Origin: Candidatus Binatota bacterium
GTDB taxonomy: Bacteria > Desulfobacterota > Binatia > UBA1149
Length of the DNA stretch: 38,038 nucleotides
Assembly (NCBI GenBank): GCA_012960245.1
Contig: DUBO01000050.1
Coordinates: forward strand, 1 to 38,038
Direction: 5' to 3'
Below, in pieces: positions 16,416 through 23,186 of the stretch; position 1 is the first letter of the stretch, and every line of letters starts with the position of its first letter. Under the pieces are notes generated by a model. It was not told where the DNA came from, searched no databases, and saw only the letters and a program-made list of their open reading frames with translations. The translations under genes were made by a program, and so were the position numbers.

Positions 16416-17204
16416 TCAGCCGAACATGGAACGCCGCGGGCGCTCCAGCAGCGACTCGACTATGCGCCGCAGTTCGTCAGCAGAGGCTTTCTTTATGTCA
16501 GTCATGTTGGCCTCGTGGCTCTCGACCTCGCCCTTGACCGCCGACTCGTGGCGGTCAACCTCCGCGTTCATCAAGTCAACGTAGCGATCGAGTCTACGCG
16601 AGATTTTGAGAAACACCCGTTGGCCCGGACTGAACGAAGCCTGGCATAGCGGGCAACGCAGCACGGTACCGGGCGAAAGGAACCTGAAGTCTACTTCGTA
16701 CTCACCCTGGCAGCTCCGGCACAGCACGGGCACCGGGAAATCGAGCACTGAATTGGCCTCCACCACGGGGGCCGTGGCTACAGCAGCGGGAGCCGGGGGC
16801 GCAGCCGCCGCGCCTTCAGTCGCAGTGGACCCAGCCTCAGCCGCAGGCTCGCCCGCGTCGGCCCCACCGGCGTCATCCGAAAAGCGCGACGGGAAGCTGT
16901 CGCCGAAGTTCTCGTCGGGGTGCAGGACCCGCGCTCTTTCTATCAGTTGCACTTCGGTCTCCGGGCGATCGGGATCCGGAATGCAACAGTCAACGGGACA
17001 GACCACCGCGCAGGCTTCTTCGTCAAAAAAACCAACACACTCACTGCACCTGTCAGGAATTATGTAGAAAAAATCGTCGGACAACGCCTGGTGGGCCGAG
17101 CCCTCGTGCTGATACTCTACTCCACCCTCGTAGATCGCCGTGTTGGGACACTCCGGCTCGCAGGCGGCGCAGTTTATACAATCGTCGGTTATTACCGTAG
17201 CCAT
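16416..17204 (-). CDS. Ferredoxin fused to a zinc-ribbon and C-terminal helix
   Basis: A 262-residue protein with three parts. Residues 1-80 are an Alvin-type 2[4Fe-4S] ferredoxin (YfhL-like): CINCAACEPECP (Cys9, 12, 15, 19), then Cys53, 56, 65, 69 with extra Cys73 and 74. Residues 110-150 are an Ala/Pro-rich linker. Residues 160-190 hold two CxxC pairs (CRSC 162-165, CPLC 184-187), a zinc-ribbon resembling MJ0042-type short ribbons. The last 65 residues are charged and helical. YfhL-like ferredoxins are usually about 80-110 residues, so the ribbon extension is unusual. It could bind nucleic acid or protein and deliver electrons. GAGGAG precedes the ATG at 17204. It lies just upstream of the DnaQ/UvrC-type gene and is probably cotranslated with it. 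Confidence 0.82.
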   Translation of the reverse strand: MATVITDDCINCAACEPECPNTAIYEGGVEYQHEGSAHQALSDDFFYIIPDRCSECVGFFDEEACAVVCPVDCCIPDPDRPETEVQLIERARVLHPDENFGDSFPSRFSDDAGGADAGEPAAEAGSTATEGAAAAPPAPAAVATAPVVEANSVLDFPVPVLCRSCQGEYEVDFRFLSPGTVLRCPLCQASFSPGQRVFLKISRRLDRYVDLMNAEVDRHESAVKGEVESHEANMTDIKKASADELRRIVESLLERPRRSMFG

Positions 17205-17328: not shown

Positions 17329-18435
17329 TTGTTCATTAAGCGCTTTCTTCTGACCCTGAGGCAGAGCACCGGGCTTCGCCGCCGCCTCGAGGGCTACACG
17401 GTATCGGCCCTGTTCCACCTACTGCTGGTGTTATTGCTGGCCACGATCACCATATCGGCTGGCGGAGAAGGCTTCGGCCTGGGCCTGAGATCAGATAAAA
17501 CGCGGGTGCATCTTTCGCTCAAGGAAGAAAGCGTCGATGAAGCCGACCTCGAAAACCTCATTGAGACGGTCGAGATAAAGCCGATAGAGGTGCAAAGGGT
17601 GCGGCCCCAGGACGTGCGCCTGCCCGAGCTGGCCAGCTTTGCCGCTCCCATGCCCAGCGCCGATCGGCTGCGCGACCTGTCGTCTCGCCACAACCCCACC
17701 GCGAGCACCGGCAGCCGCTCGGCCCGTTTTGGTAGCTTTCTGGGCAGCCTGCGCAAGTCGGGACTGGACGTCGCGCTGGTGGTCGATTCGACCGCGAGCA
17801 TGCAGGATGTCATTGACGATATAAAGGACAACAGCCTCCAGCTGGTCGGCCGCATACAGGAGCTGGTGCCGATAGCGAGAATTGGAGTGGTCGCCTTTCG
17901 CGACCGAGGTGAGCGCTTCGTAGTTCGTTGGTCCGATCTCAGTTTTCACGGTAGCAAGATCCGCGACTTTATCGGCGACATCGAAGCTGGCGGTGGTGGT
18001 GACTGGGAAGAGGGTGTACGCCAAGGCGTCGAAGCCGCCATGGACGAGCTGTCGTGGCGACGCAGGTCTAAGAAAGTAATCATAGTGATAGGCAGCTCAC
18101 CGCCGCACGCCTCCGATCTCGACGCCATCGACGCGCTGGCCAGGGAATTCAACGGTACCGGCGGGGTGCTCAGCACCATCGACCTGACCCGCCGCATGCA
18201 CGAACGCTACGAGATCCGACTCCACACCTGGCTTTACGGCGAGCCCCCGGACAAAATCTCTCCCCTGCCCGAGTTCTACCAGGAAGTCCGACGCAGCTAC
18301 CGGGCGATGGCCAACGCGGGCGGAGGCGAAATGGCCGCCCTCGGCAGCGACGAAGAACTGGCCGAGCAGGTCCTCTACTTTGCCTTCGGCTCGCAGTGGC
18401 AGAAAGAAGTAGACCGTTTCAAGGCCGTGTACTGA
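17329..18435 (+). CDS. TonB-anchored von Willebrand factor A protein
   Basis: A 368-residue inner-membrane protein. The single N-terminal helix (GYTVSALFHLLLVLLLATI, 22-40) has Ser26, His30, Leu37 and Thr41. This is the spacing of the Ser-His-Leu-Ser motif of the TonB transmembrane helix, which contacts ExbB/ExbD. A periplasmic linker of about 100 residues leads to a vWA domain (146-355). Its MIDAS starts with VVDSTASM (Asp153, Thr155, Ser157) and has GGGGDWEEGV (221-230). The Asp usual in IGDAPPH is Ser256 (IGSSPPH). There is no TonB C-terminal domain. The frame is open upstream to 17140 across the divergent gene; I chose the TTG at 17329 because it follows a promoter-like pair and precedes the helix. 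ExbB follows after 29 bases. Confidence 0.82.
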   Translation: MFIKRFLLTLRQSTGLRRRLEGYTVSALFHLLLVLLLATITISAGGEGFGLGLRSDKTRVHLSLKEESVDEADLENLIETVEIKPIEVQRVRPQDVRLPELASFAAPMPSADRLRDLSSRHNPTASTGSRSARFGSFLGSLRKSGLDVALVVDSTASMQDVIDDIKDNSLQLVGRIQELVPIARIGVVAFRDRGERFVVRWSDLSFHGSKIRDFIGDIEAGGGGDWEEGVRQGVEAAMDELSWRRRSKKVIIVIGSSPPHASDLDAIDALAREFNGTGGVLSTIDLTRRMHERYEIRLHTWLYGEPPDKISPLPEFYQEVRRSYRAMANAGGGEMAALGSDEELAEQVLYFAFGSQWQKEVDRFKAVY

Positions 18436-18464
18436 AAACTAAGAAAACAGAGGAGCCCCTTTTC

Positions 18465-19247
18465 ATGAACAAGCGCAAAAACTCCACCACACCCGGGTCG
18501 GCGAGCAAGGCTGCCGTCTTCAATGCCACTGCCTTGCTGCTGTCGGCCGTGTTCCTGCTGTCGGCGACGCCGGCGGCGGCCCAGGAGGGCGCTGCGAAGG
18601 CGGCCAACGGTGCCCTCAACTACAGCCTCATGGACCTCGTGCAATTCGGCGGCATCGTGGGCTACGTCATCCTGCTGTTGTCGGTGGTAGCCGTCGCCCT
18701 GATCGTGGAATACACGCTGTCAATCAGGCGTAAGACCCTCATGCCTGAAGAAGAACGCGTGGACCTGCGCAAGATGCTCGACGAAGGACGCTTTGACGAG
18801 CTGCGGACAAAAACCGCCTCGGGTGAGAGCTCGTTCTTCGGGCGCGTAGTTTCGGCAGGGGTAAAGGAACACGACCGCGGCTACGAAGCTGTCGTCAAGG
18901 CGATGGAAGATAGCGCCGACGAAAACGCCGGCCGGCTGCTGCGAAAAATCGAACACCTCAACATGATCGCCAACATCGCACCCATGCTCGGCCTGCTGGG
19001 TACCGTGATGGGCATGGTCAATTCGTTCAACCAGATATCGGTCGCCGTCGGTGGCGTTGATCCGCGCAGGCTCGCGGGCGGTATATTTGAAGCCTTGATG
19101 ACCACCGTCATGGGCCTGATCGTGGCCATCCCCTCCTTGTATGCCTTCGGCATGTTCCGCAACCGGGTCGACGCGCTGTCGGCCGAGGTAGTGGCCGAGG
19201 CCGAGGACGCAGTGTCGCCGCTGAGGAACGGAATCTCCGGCAAGTGA
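18465..19247 (+). CDS. exbB: ExbB/TolQ/MotA-family proton channel subunit
   Basis: A 260-residue ExbB. It begins with a cleavable-looking signal (hydrophobic 21-35, ATPAAA-Q near 39-40), as in marine-type ExbB proteins, then a first helix (GGIVGYVILLLSVVAVALI). The conserved pore helices are IAPMLGLLGTVMGMVNSF (171-188) and GGIFEALMTTVMGLIVAIP (205-223). Thr180, Glu209 and Thr213/214 are at positions of the polar pore residues of ExbB. With ExbD it would turn proton flow into mechanical work on the TonB-type anchor next door. The ATG at 18465 has an AGGAG site. Its stop overlaps the next start (GTGA at 19244-19247). Confidence 0.93.
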   Translation: MNKRKNSTTPGSASKAAVFNATALLLSAVFLLSATPAAAQEGAAKAANGALNYSLMDLVQFGGIVGYVILLLSVVAVALIVEYTLSIRRKTLMPEEERVDLRKMLDEGRFDELRTKTASGESSFFGRVVSAGVKEHDRGYEAVVKAMEDSADENAGRLLRKIEHLNMIANIAPMLGLLGTVMGMVNSFNQISVAVGGVDPRRLAGGIFEALMTTVMGLIVAIPSLYAFGMFRNRVDALSAEVVAEAEDAVSPLRNGISGK

Positions 19248-19684
19248 AAGGAGCTCACTCACACCGGCCGAGGGCGATCTCATTTCGGGCGACCGCGATG
19301 ATAGACATGGCATTTCTGCTCATAACCTTCTTCATCATGTCGATCCGTTTCGGCCAGGCGGGAGAAGAAACCATAGAGCTGCCCAACGCCGACCAGGCCC
19401 GCGAGGTAACCGACGAGCGCGTTGAGCTCGTGACCGTCAACGTGTCGGGCGAAGGCGTGTACCTGGTGTCGGGCGTACAACGGTCAAGGGCTGAACTGTA
19501 CCGCTACATCGAGGCGCGCAAGGCAGAGGCCAGCGAACACCGCAAACTCGAAATCGTGGTGCGCGGCGACCGCTCGAGTCGTTTTGAGAACGTACAGGCG
19601 GTGATGCGGATGGCTGCCGACGCCGGGGTCACCGACGTGAGCCTCGCGGCCTTACAGGCCACCGACGACGTGGAGCAGAGGTAG
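19244..19684 (+). CDS. exbD: ExbD/TolR-family protein, first copy
   Basis: A 146-residue ExbD with one N-terminal helix (MIDMAFLLITFFIMSIRF, 19-36) and a periplasmic domain. Asp21 is the proton-carrying Asp of the family. The usual P-x-I-D is A-M-I-D, so the Pro is missing, unlike in the second copy. The periplasmic part has the ExbD pattern VELVTVNVSGEGVYLV and a VVRGDRSSRFENVQAVM stretch. The GTG at 19244 overlaps the ExbB stop; an AAAGGAG lies just after this GTG, but I see no good later start. The second ExbD begins 4 bases after its stop. Confidence 0.88.
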   Translation: MKGAHSHRPRAISFRATAMIDMAFLLITFFIMSIRFGQAGEETIELPNADQAREVTDERVELVTVNVSGEGVYLVSGVQRSRAELYRYIEARKAEASEHRKLEIVVRGDRSSRFENVQAVMRMAADAGVTDVSLAALQATDDVEQR

Positions 19685-19688
19685 GGCC

Positions 19689-20150
19689 TTGCGTCGACCG
19701 AGAACATCGAACTCCGATCGCGGATCGGGCGAGCTGCACATGGCGCCGCTGATCGACTGCGTGTTCCTGCTGCTCACCTATTTTCTGTTCACCATTTCGT
19801 TGGCGACCGTCGAGGGCCTACTGACTTCAAAGCTCGCCATGGGCGGCGAAATGGAAGAGAAGCGCTTCGACCTCAAGCTGCAGGAGAAAGAAACCATCGT
19901 ACGCCTGGTCCACGCCGGCGAGAGCGTGCAGTACTTCATCGACGACTGGCCCGCAGCTGACTTCGCCGCCGTGGCCGAGCACCTGAAAGGCATCCCCGAG
20001 CAATCGCTGGTGGTCATCGATGCGTCTGCCTCTATTCCCTACGAACACGTCATCCGCCTCTACAACCAGTGCCTGCGCCTATCGCTGGCCAACGTGGTCT
20101 TTCCTCTTTCTTCGCGCAGCGGGACCATGGGGACAGCCCCGCGCCTGTGA
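19689..20150 (+). CDS. exbD: ExbD/TolR-family protein, second copy
   Basis: A 153-residue ExbD with a canonical helix start, MAPLIDCVFLLLTYFLF (18-34), and the key Asp23. The periplasmic part (FDLKLQEKETIVRLVHAGES, then SLVVIDASASIPYEHVIRLYNQC) fits the ExbD fold but is quite different from the first copy. This suggests a hetero-oligomer rather than recent duplication. The TTG at 19689, with AGGTAGGG just before it, is the best start; starting at the ATG of residue 18 would remove the cytoplasmic tail. The stop overlaps the GTG of the TPR gene (GTGA at 20147-20150). Confidence 0.87.
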   Translation: MRRPRTSNSDRGSGELHMAPLIDCVFLLLTYFLFTISLATVEGLLTSKLAMGGEMEEKRFDLKLQEKETIVRLVHAGESVQYFIDDWPAADFAAVAEHLKGIPEQSLVVIDASASIPYEHVIRLYNQCLRLSLANVVFPLSSRSGTMGTAPRL

Positions 20151-22228
20151 AAGTAGCGCCTCTAACTGGAGCCGCGGTGCCTGCCGTGATCCTGGCTACC
20201 GTATTGACGGCGCTGTCGCTGCTGCCCGGGATCGCGGCGGCCGATGACCTGGAGGAGCTGCGCGGCCTGCTGCGCGAGGTCACAGCCCGGGCCGAGTCGC
20301 TCGACCGCCGCGCCTGGAATCGCGATGCGGAGAAATCGCTTACCGAGAAAGCTGAGAATGCCGTGGACCTGTTCCACCGCCTGGCCGGCAGCGGAAAGAT
20401 GGACAGCCCCACTGCGCAGTTGACCCTGTCAACCGTCGAGCGAACCCGCGAGCGGTACACCACCGAGATCCGGCGTATGCAGGACGACGTCATAGAGGTG
20501 GACGGCGACCTCGAGGCCGCCCAAGACAGCGCCGCCTGGAAGCAGCGCGAGGTGTTGGCGCAAAGACTCCTCTACCGACTCAACTGGATTCGCTATGAGC
20601 TTGCGATGCGCTACGAAAGTCGCGGGCAGCAACGCACGCGGCTACTGCAACGCGCCGAACGGGGTTTCGCGGACTTCCTTGGCGCGAGCGATCGTGCAGT
20701 GGCCCTGGAGTGTCTCTACGGACACGGCCTGACTCTGAAGGCGATGAAGCGATACGACGAGGCTCTCGACGACCTCCATGCCGCACTCGACATGAGCCCG
20801 GCCGCCGCGCGAGCCACCGACATACGAGCAGCGGTGGCTGGCATCGCCTTGGCCACCGGTCGAATCGAAACCGCCTTGCGACAGACCGCAAGCCTGCTGG
20901 CCGGCGCCGGCAAAGAAGAGGACCGGTTGCGCGCCACGTTTCTGCGGGCCAAAGCCCTGCTGCTGGCCCTCGGAAAATACCGCGACCGCTACGACGACCG
21001 CAGCAGGGGTTCCATGCGCCTGGAGGCGGCGCGCATGCTCGAGAGATTGCACGCCAGCCCCGGCTACTGGCGCTCCAAGGCCAGCCAGTTGGTAGACGCC
21101 GGGGTAGAGGACCCCCTGGAATGGACAGCGGCCGGCACCGGTGGATTCGTAACGTTGCTCATCGCCGACTCGCTGAGAAGGCGTGGTGACTGCCCGCGGG
21201 CGCAGCCGCTGTACGATGCTCTCTTTGAACGCAATGAATACCTGTCCGAGGCCAGGCTTGGACGCGGCTTCTGCTTCTTCCATTCGGGCAAGTGGGAAGA
21301 CAGCATCACCGAGCTCGGGCAGGCCCTTGAAGAAGCCGGCCCGGTGGCTCGGGAACAGGCCGCCTGGTTCATGTTCAAGGCCGCCGAGTCTCTGTACCTC
21401 TCGGCCGACGATCAGGCACGCGACGCAGCCGCCTTGCGCTACTCTAAACTCGCCCGTGCATTCGTCGACGCCGCGCCCCGCCACGAGAACGCCTGGGAAG
21501 CGTGGTTCCGCCTCGGTGAGTGGCACCGCGACCATCGCCAGTACCTCGACTGTGCCGACGCTTTCGCGCGTGTACGCGGCGACGCCGCTTTCATGCTCAA
21601 GTCGAGATTCCAATCGGCGCAGTGCGCGTTCCAGTCGATCACCGACCGCGACCCGGGCGATGACCCCGATATCGACGAGCTGGCAAACGCGCTCGCGTCA
21701 CTGGACGGTTTCCTCTCGCACTCCGCCGACTTCCGTAAGCGGACATCGGCTGGCCGAGGTACCGCCGGTTTGCTGGATCCGCTCGAGGCAAGGGCAACGG
21801 TGATGGCCGCCGCGCTGGCGGGCCGACTCGAAGCTGCAAGCGAATCGCTGAAGCCATCGGCAGTGGACAGGCTTGCCGGCTTCGAGCTGCAGTTTCCCGA
21901 GCAGGCCGACCTGCTGCCAGAGGTGCTCGTGCTGCGGGCCTACTCTTTCCGTCGCCTGCAGGACCCGGTCCGGGCCGCCCGGGCGGTAGACCAACTGGCC
22001 GGACTCGACGGCAACGAGGGTAATGAGCAGCTGCGCAAACTTGGAGTGCTGTTTCTCAAGGACGCGGCCAGCATCGCCCAGGACGGCGACGAGGCCCTGG
22101 CCCGGAGCTACAGGAAGATCGCGCTCAGTGCCTGGGAAGGACTGCTCGCGCACACTGACGCAGGGGACCCGCGCGCCGCCGACATCCGCCGCCTGGTCGT
22201 CGACCTACGAAGCCAGACCAGCTCCTGA
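20147..22228 (+). CDS. Exported TPR-repeat protein of the ExbBD operon
   Basis: A 693-residue protein with a signal peptide (hydrophobic 10-28, GIAAA-DD near 31-33), so it is periplasmic. The mature part is all helical. An early coiled-coil-like region (EELRGLLREVTARAESLDRR) is followed by TPR-like pairs such as ALECLYGHGLTLKAMKRYDEAL (about 184-206), ARLGRGFCFFHSGKWEDSITEL and AWEAWFRLGEWHRDHRQYLDCA. There is no catalytic motif. It is probably a scaffold for the ExbBD/vWA machine, comparable in place to the TPR protein CpoB beside Tol-Pal. The frame is open upstream to 20069, but GTG 20147 overlaps the ExbD stop and starts the signal peptide, so I use it. Confidence 0.83.
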   Translation: MKVAPLTGAAVPAVILATVLTALSLLPGIAAADDLEELRGLLREVTARAESLDRRAWNRDAEKSLTEKAENAVDLFHRLAGSGKMDSPTAQLTLSTVERTRERYTTEIRRMQDDVIEVDGDLEAAQDSAAWKQREVLAQRLLYRLNWIRYELAMRYESRGQQRTRLLQRAERGFADFLGASDRAVALECLYGHGLTLKAMKRYDEALDDLHAALDMSPAAARATDIRAAVAGIALATGRIETALRQTASLLAGAGKEEDRLRATFLRAKALLLALGKYRDRYDDRSRGSMRLEAARMLERLHASPGYWRSKASQLVDAGVEDPLEWTAAGTGGFVTLLIADSLRRRGDCPRAQPLYDALFERNEYLSEARLGRGFCFFHSGKWEDSITELGQALEEAGPVAREQAAWFMFKAAESLYLSADDQARDAAALRYSKLARAFVDAAPRHENAWEAWFRLGEWHRDHRQYLDCADAFARVRGDAAFMLKSRFQSAQCAFQSITDRDPGDDPDIDELANALASLDGFLSHSADFRKRTSAGRGTAGLLDPLEARATVMAAALAGRLEAASESLKPSAVDRLAGFELQFPEQADLLPEVLVLRAYSFRRLQDPVRAARAVDQLAGLDGNEGNEQLRKLGVLFLKDAASIAQDGDEALARSYRKIALSAWEGLLAHTDAGDPRAADIRRLVVDLRSQTSS

Positions 22229-22256: not shown

Positions 22257-23186
22257 TCAGCCGCCGTCTTCGAGCTCGACCAGGAAGCCCTCGGTCTCGC
22301 CCGTTGCACGATCTGCCATGATGACCCGGGCGCGATCGTAATCACCCTCGCTGTAGTAGACAAAACCTTCGATGACCTGTCCCGGCTCCAGCTGGGCCGA
22401 GTGCAGCAAGCGGCGCTCCATGATAGCCGCCGCGCGTTTCACGTCACCCAGTGACTCGCCGGCCTGCTCGGCGCGACGGCCCGCCTTGCGCAAACTCGAC
22501 AAGGCGACGTCCATTTCAAGCGGGTAAGCACGCAGCCTTTTGCCCGTGCGCCTGAGAACAACGTCGGCCGGGTGAAAGCGGTAGTGCCGCGAGCTGCCGT
22601 TTTCTATTCTCACTTTGACGGGTAGCAGATCGGCGGCCGACAGGTTTGCCTCGAAGTCGAGCACGGTAGAAAAACCGCGGATCGGTTCCAGCGTCACGAT
22701 TACTCCCACGGCTTCCTTCTTTCGCTCTACGTGTTTGCGTGGCGGTGGCCGCGTGGTCACCACGCCGGCATCGGCTGGGGCTGATGATTTCTTCTTCAGG
22801 TCGGCCGCCCTGACGTCTTCTGCGCTGAGATCGGCGCGGCCGGTTATCGACAGGAACACAACCCTCTCAAAGTACTGCTCTCCGGCGATTCCATTCTCCG
22901 AAGGGACAATGTGAACACCGTTGGCGTCGCAATGTATTCTGACAGTGCCTGAAATGGTCTCCTCTTTGTCGTGGCGCTCGGCACTGATGAAACCCGGGCT
23001 ACCGGGCGACGCCAGTCGAAAAGCCGTCACCGTCATTCTCGCCTGTCGCAGCGAGTCGTGGACGTAGCGGTTGGCCTGGTCGCAGGTCAGCCGGTCGGTG
23101 TGGATCTCGTAGAAGCGCGTAATGGGCGTGCAAGCGAACAGTACCCCGGCCGCAAGCACGACGACCGCCCTGCTGATGGCCTTCAT
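22257..23186 (-). CDS. Lipoprotein of unknown function
   Basis: A 309-residue lipoprotein: the signal ends in a lipobox VLFAC (Cys19). Residues 20-125 form a first domain with the pattern of a small alpha/beta lipoprotein (CDQANRYVHDSLRQARMTV). A basic, Pro-rich linker (about 130-160, RPPPRKHVERKKE) follows. The C-terminal part (165-305) looks like an immunoglobulin-like beta sandwich: LPVKVRIENGSSRHYRFHPA, then LEPGQVIEGFVYYSEGDYDRA, a pattern seen in DUF4352-like exported domains. I do not recognise a named family. The ATG overlaps the stop of the CDP-alcohol gene (ATGA at 23183-23186). It converges with the TPR gene, 28 bases away, with no strong terminator between. Confidence 0.72.
   Translation of the reverse strand: MKAISRAVVVLAAGVLFACTPITRFYEIHTDRLTCDQANRYVHDSLRQARMTVTAFRLASPGSPGFISAERHDKEETISGTVRIHCDANGVHIVPSENGIAGEQYFERVVFLSITGRADLSAEDVRAADLKKKSSAPADAGVVTTRPPPRKHVERKKEAVGVIVTLEPIRGFSTVLDFEANLSAADLLPVKVRIENGSSRHYRFHPADVVLRRTGKRLRAYPLEMDVALSSLRKAGRRAEQAGESLGDVKRAAAIMERRLLHSAQLEPGQVIEGFVYYSEGDYDRARVIMADRATGETEGFLVELEDGG

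Follow-up and report, generated by a model that had tools for sequence, protein, structure and literature searches.

A five-gene unit on the plus strand of contig DUBO01000050.1 from Candidatus Binatota bacterium (assembly GCA_012960245.1), at positions 17329-22228 of the 38,038-nucleotide stretch analysed (the window), encodes a membrane protein with a von Willebrand factor type A (vWA) domain, the motor subunit ExbB, two ExbD proteins (ExbD1 and ExbD2) and an exported tetratricopeptide repeat (TPR) protein. The unit probably specifies a proton-driven ExbB-ExbD motor with the vWA protein as its side-docked arm, belonging to the vWA force transducer family, with vWA and TPR as a conserved unit and the motor exchangeable. 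The initial annotation of this DNA, which had proposed that an ExbBD motor pulls on a periplasmic vWA domain, was right in its main idea but not in stating that no named system has this gene set, as the family was published by Williams-Jones et al. in 2025 (PMC12204202) with its function stated to be unknown. The protein described here is a further member, in another phylum.

As given in the main text of PMC12204202, these force transducers have an N-terminal SHLS helix, a disordered domain II of ~100 residues with a predicted motor-box strand and a C-terminal vWA fold, without a TolA or TonB domain, and are encoded beside a tolQ-like gene, two dissimilar tolR-like genes and a TPR gene. The window protein shares the SHLS helix, a disordered linker (residues 46-127), the C-terminal vWA fold without a TolA or TonB domain and the gene neighbours; it differs in its phylum, Candidatus Binatota (ranked as such in the NCBI taxonomy), and in a gene order with vWA first and TPR last, and its relatives differ in that 30 of 44 motor-bearing loci have one ExbD. 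A second vWA family in the same text, with an Asp in a pore helix and without ExbD, likewise has vWA beside a tolQ-like gene, whereas the helix encoded in the window lacks an Asp and contains the S/H motif, and the unit includes two ExbDs. The unit shares its motor families and helix docking motif with ExbB-ExbD-TonB and TolQ-TolR-TolA but lacks their TonB_C or TolA domain.

Homologues of the vWA protein were detected in 45 of 58 genomes searched, the window's own included, all assigned by inference to the class Binatia (best E value 1.1e-52 or lower), giving 47 loci with that of the window. ExbB and ExbD are encoded near vWA, on the same strand, at 44 of these loci and in 44 of the 45 genomes, so that the vWA gene is conserved beside exbB and exbD, the linkage on which the initial annotation had staked its proposal. 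At one exception (L052) the contig ends within the vWA gene, the end of which, together with a motor, is found at L070 of the same genome (G012). Another (L065) is one of two copies in G025, the second of which (L152) reads ExbB-ExbD-ExbD followed by vWA to the contig end. Among the 44 motor-bearing loci, 30 have one ExbD, 12 have two, and two (L026, L043) combine a single ExbD with a further ExbB-ExbD set; at L026, L043 and L090 such an additional set follows TPR, ahead of the next gene. Outside this genome set, three near-identical proteobacterial records (L124-L126), one titled Gammaproteobacteria, have the order ExbB-ExbD-ExbD-vWA-TPR, and two Phycisphaerales or Phycisphaeraceae records (L131, L132) have TPR-ExbB-ExbD-ExbD-vWA, the gene set and order given in the main text of PMC12204202 for the PVC group.

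The single membrane helix of the vWA protein contains S26, H30, L37 and T41, with exactly the spacing of S16, H20, L27 and S31 in E. coli TonB, as initially proposed, and also of S18, H22, L29 and S33 in TolA (both from the MG1655 record). The TonB encoded in the window's own genome has the S, H and L with R at the fourth position. In an alignment of the window protein (P0001) with 42 relatives (A1; L045, L046, L052 and L070 omitted as near copies or fragments), the Ser and His do not vary freely: H30 is present in 43 of 43 rows and S26 in 42, the remaining row (L027) having A in place of S with the His kept. Among residues 1-128, H30 has the lowest entropy (0), followed by S26, tied with G128, in columns filled in at least 40 of the 43 rows, a result that exceeds chance in rows trimmed relative to the S-x3-H site where present, which favours alignment of that site. 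Both residues are also present in 43/43 rows of a further alignment (A3), partly by selection because A3 was built from named-record loci that had the motif. The control comprised 18 vWA loci from outside Binatia at which broad ExbB/ExbD profiles detected no motor (L129, L130, L134-L149). In none of them does S-x3-H fall within a clearly hydrophobic stretch preceding the domain, two of the 18 frames being cut short and the domain boundary crude; the nearest case, L144, has the pattern at the end of a signal-like stretch. All five non-Binatia vWA loci with a motor (L124-L126, L131, L132) have the S-x3-H helix, their motors having helped to train the profiles, and at L127 the motif is present and no motor was found.

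The S28, T145 and T178 residues of TolQ align with S73, T180 and T214 of the window ExbB. The Ser is conserved in all 55 ExbB rows from vWA loci, two of which are second motor copies, and the Thr pair in the same 55. Both window ExbDs have an Asp in the membrane helix region. A hydrogen bond between TolQ S28 and TolA H22 is reported in PMC12583513, and docking of the vWA helix onto the motor through its His is reported from AF3 models of homologues in PMC12204202. Conservation of the Ser and His, together with synteny, supports at the sequence level the coupling of the vWA protein to the ExbBD motor through a TonB/TolA-type helix. The window ExbB has a long signal-like N-terminal extension (18465-18590), type B ExbB frames (defined below) being mostly shorter at ~213-230 amino acids. 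A sequence search with ExbD1 gave no solved relative.

The AlphaFold2 model of the vWA protein consists of one long helix, a mostly low-confidence linker (pLDDT < 50 at residues 45-70, 84-110 and 112-127) and a confident vWA domain, and the protein is predicted to be anchored by its membrane helix with the domain in the periplasm. The D-box is defined in PMC10907165, and a pattern like it was matched in 23 of the 42 relatives. In 2000 shuffles the number averaged 5.1 and never exceeded 13, but the rows are related and 9 of the 23 are Gly-rich, 7 of these from family f11. Only vWA-type Pfam families match the protein at E values up to 0.05, and none in NCBIfam, bearing out the initially noted absence of a TonB C-terminal or TolA domain; the TonB of the same genome does match TonB_C. 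The sequence D153-S-T155-A-S157 is presumably a metal-ion-dependent adhesion site (MIDAS)-type motif, with D153 and S157 present in 43/43 rows of A1 and T155 in 41, the other two having S; D225 is replaced by E or A in 6/43 rows of A1 and 18/43 of A3. The nearest folds identified by Foldseek are the Rpn10 vWA domain, integrin beta, SpaC and BatB. Beyond this resemblance nothing was found in favour of the adhesion-type role initially assigned to the domain. The vWA profile search also caught three distant animal vWA sequences.

A TPR gene is adjacent at 39 of the 47 loci. Of the eight without it, two are at contig ends (L052, L061) and six belong to family f12, in which a TPR relative is encoded on another contig in 6/6 genomes. 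TPR is present in 44 of the 58 genomes, in 43 of them with vWA; one genome has TPR only, two have vWA only and 12 have neither, so that the two agree in 55/58. The vWA-only genomes are G016, with a diverged TPR beside vWA, and G051, in which the contig ends after ExbD; in the TPR-only genome (G003) a contig stops at ExbB and so lacks the place where this gene order would put vWA. Single absences of TPR are soft because the TPR search scored at most 17 candidates per genome, and the absences are concentrated in few families, so the 58 genomes are not 58 independent observations. The initial suggestion that the TPR protein is a scaffold for the vWA protein is supported in part, as a partnership, because TPR is inherited with vWA even where the gene is unlinked or the motor differs. 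The TPR model (m187e3b626984; mean pLDDT 90.8) has only helices, arranged in a confident solenoid, and a fold search returned only generic solenoids with low TM-scores. Lipobox-like patterns occur in only 5 of the 46 TPR N-termini listed (L029, L056, L124-L126), the starts being uncurated, and a lipoprotein assignment was dropped.

Two motor lineages serve the vWA-TPR pair in Binatia. In a tree of 81 ExbB rows, type A (the window and eight other operons) groups with two Phycisphaerales ExbBs (support 99/97), and the other Binatia vWA-linked ExbBs, type B, form a separate group (100/95); a single ExbB clade of A and B is rejected by the approximately unbiased (AU) test (p 0.003; 39 type B rows, second copies omitted), the groups having been named after the tree was seen and long branches being flagged. 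Types A and B join in one group of the vWA tree (97/91), in which A is nested inside B (99/95). AU tests on vWA rejected neither a clade of type A plus Planctomycetota (p 0.094) nor type B as one clade (p 0.065) and are thus compatible with more than one inner order and with either direction of motor exchange. In all-pairs blastp comparisons, with the score divided by the lower self-score (L052, L065, L069 and L127 omitted, and L070 for vWA), the medians for A-B versus B-B pairs are 0.314 and 0.263 for vWA, 0.104 and 0.114 for TPR, 0.142 and 0.479 for ExbB, and 0.109 and 0.460 for ExbD. The highest A-B value for ExbB is 0.183, and among the 478 B-B pairs whose vWA similarity falls within that of A-B pairs, not one is that low; type A against Phycisphaerales ExbB gives 0.276. 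Median bit scores of the window proteins against type B and Phycisphaerales are 216 and 94 for vWA and 65 and 125 for ExbB, and the TPR protein scores 126 against type B with no Phycisphaerales match at E values up to 1. Identity of the window vWA protein to the two Phycisphaerales vWA proteins with the PVC gene set is 25-26%. The similarity of vWA and TPR is therefore kept within Binatia while the motor differs, and one genome (G050) has both motor types. Similar vWA-TPR pairs on two motor lineages suggest that vWA-TPR is the functional unit and that the motor can be exchanged.

A related arrangement is found in planctomycetes. The planctomycete record L127 lies in G058 and encodes, at L127:6748-9063, a protein with a forkhead-associated (FHA) domain, a helix and a vWA domain; others are at L182-L199. 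In G058 and relatives, S-x3-H precedes a hydrophobic stretch at 15 of 18 such loci, and 12 of the 15 match FHA (PF00498) above the cut-off. In 14/14 genomes searched, the ExbD genes, among the matches listed, are on other contigs than FHA-vWA. These proteins rule out the use of S-x3-H as a marker of an adjoining motor. On sequence grounds they resemble arms driven by a motor from another locus, and phosphorylation could switch them. More tentatively, vWA-TPR may be a self-standing periplasmic pulling module that plugs into different ExbBD motors, with one Binatia lineage having swapped its motor and kept vWA-TPR, and with the arm in Planctomycetota joined to a cytoplasmic FHA domain that reads phosphothreonine and driven by motors from other loci, so that Ser/Thr kinases may switch the pulling. 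The terms 'Binat', 'Desulfobacter', 'MIDAS' and 'orphan' have no match in the main text of PMC12204202, 'FHA' matches only FhaC, and neither motor exchange nor FHA fusions were met in that text; PMC12905483, which cites it, has no match to 'vWA' or 'von Willebrand'. Literature searches for Binatota with von Willebrand or with ExbB found nothing, most subscription papers being outside their scope, and one for FHA domain, von Willebrand factor and ExbD matched a planctomycete expression paper alone. Within the reach of these searches, the new findings are the co-inheritance of vWA and TPR in Binatia, motor exchange (for which the literature was not searched as such) and the FHA fusions.

Several observations weigh against the proposed arm and motor. 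Of the four-residue motif initially described, the S/H half is kept in relatives but the L and [ST] half is not, position 37 of A1 being L in just 25 of 43 rows (F in 10, V in 7, I in 1) and position 41 T or S in just 19. The AlphaFold2 model has no strand in the linker. One locus, L069 (G052), is a true exception with vWA and no adjoining motor, and ExbB/ExbD were not found beside any of the 18 FHA-vWA-type loci, several of which are cut by contig ends. The ExbB at L220, from a genome without vWA (G013), falls inside type B. Other ExbB/TolQ rows also have the Ser (22/26) and the Thr pair (26/26), and these residues therefore indicate a working motor rather than vWA specificity.

By analogy, the motor would be an ExbB5-ExbD2 complex, here probably with one ExbD1 and one ExbD2, turned by proton flow past the ExbD Asp and the ExbB Thr residues. 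The conservation on both sides suggests that the vWA helix would dock on the outer face of the ExbB pentamer, with S26/H30 meeting ExbB S73, in the manner of TolA on TolQ. The ExbD pair may then grip a strand in the linker and pull. The metal site of the vWA domain would hold a ligand, either the TPR solenoid itself or something that the solenoid presents, and the object pulled would be in the outer membrane or cell wall. It is unlikely that the vWA protein, rather than being pulled, docks on the motor to regulate it or help assemble it, with TPR as the working end. BatB, a 'conserved hypothetical protein' in its entry title, is among the Foldseek matches and vWA-TPR co-inheritance would suit a regulatory pair too, but the vWA helix carries the motif of TonB and TolA, which are force arms, and a linker of ~80 mostly low-confidence residues is more in keeping with a tether than with a compact regulator.

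A surface motility or adhesion motor, in which the vWA domain acts on a surface adhesin, is quite improbable. The fold is like those of integrin beta and the pilus adhesin SpaC, and a gliding role is floated in the main text of PMC12204202, but the domain is predicted to be in the periplasm on a membrane-anchored protein, and none of the few neighbouring genes that were scanned (5 + 10) was recognisable as a gliding or adhesin gene. An accessory of TonB-dependent uptake appears least probable of all. Vibrio TonB2 systems with TtpC reportedly include a TPR protein, and so would have ExbB, ExbD and TPR in common with the window, but they use TonB; TonB_C is absent from all five window proteins in Pfam scans, and the same genome has a separate ExbB-ExbD-TonB locus with TonB_C. 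We know of no vWA protein in the Vibrio systems.

The five genes lie on the plus strand as initially annotated (Table 1), but only two junctions have 4-base overlaps. Both are GTGA, at 19244-19247 (ExbB/ExbD1) and, if GTG 20147 is the start, at 20147-20150 (ExbD2/TPR); 4 bases (19685-19688) lie between ExbD1 and ExbD2, and 29 between vWA and ExbB. The TTG start at 17329 agrees with two homologues (L047, L048), both of 368 amino acids with the motif Ser at residue 26. GTG 20147 is the start chosen for TPR, and the Pfam scan was made on the longer version (from 20069). Pfam matches are VWA (PF00092; 4.4e-7), MotA_ExbB (2e-29), ExbD (8.5e-17 and 2.9e-12) and several TPR families.

Table 1. Features of the vWA-motor-TPR unit (positions in the window)
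Feature	Position	Strand	Details
vWA force-transducer-like protein	17329..18435	+	368 aa, TTG start; AlphaFold2 model m030799f42324, mean pLDDT 78.8
Long N-terminal helix, residues 14-45, with S26, H30, L37, T41	17368..17463	+	AlphaFold2 model; motif comparison
Linker, residues 46-127, with VHLSL (60-64), possible D-box/motor-box strand	17464..17709	+	mostly low pLDDT
vWA domain and flanking helices, residues 128-368	17710..18432	+	PF00092 at 147-264
Putative MIDAS-type metal site, D153-S-T155-A-S157	17785..17799	+	conservation
ExbB/TolQ-type motor subunit with N-terminal extension	18465..19247	+	
ExbD1, membrane Asp kept	19244..19684	+	
ExbD2, divergent second ExbD, membrane Asp kept	19689..20150	+	
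Exported TPR solenoid	20147..22228	+	693 aa from GTG 20147; longest frame from 20069

The unit is flanked by a divergent frame (16416-17204, minus strand), with 4Fe-4S-type matches below cut-offs, and a convergent frame (22257-23186, minus strand) with no family. It is the third motor locus of its 2.8 Mb assembly (60 contigs), the others being L002, with ExbB, ExbD and a TonB matching TonB_C (5e-14), and L001, with a pair of ExbB/TolQ and ExbD/TolR type at a contig end. Among the best 80 of 111 named records kept, the closest to the window vWA is titled 'bacterium UBP10_UBA1149' (98%), many are titled Candidatus Binatia, Binatota or 'Deltaproteobacteria', and L081, titled a Klebsiella pneumoniae metagenome-assembled genome, bears a Binatia-type operon, a title that looks wrong. 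Of 10 neighbouring proteins scanned outside the window, two are spermidine-synthase-like, one is a molybdopterin oxidoreductase, one is an isocitrate dehydrogenase, one has weak matches below cut-off and five have no family, and the neighbours were dropped as a clue to function; TolB and Pal were not recognised among neighbours in a general Pfam scan. A spermidine-synthase-like gene is 3' of the operon at L026, L043 and L091, the loci tested. A defence system, such as Zorya, was rejected, as none of the five proteins matched a PADLOC-DB family at E values up to 0.01.

To our knowledge, side-docked force arms are experimentally established only for TonB, TolA and their close paralogues. With a third arm, widespread and ending in another kind of domain, bacteria with an envelope of this kind would be running the same motor for a job that has no name. 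The comparison across Binatia makes this machine testable, pointing to the TPR protein as the partner of vWA and to S26 and H30 as the residues to mutate, and providing two natural motors that could be swapped.

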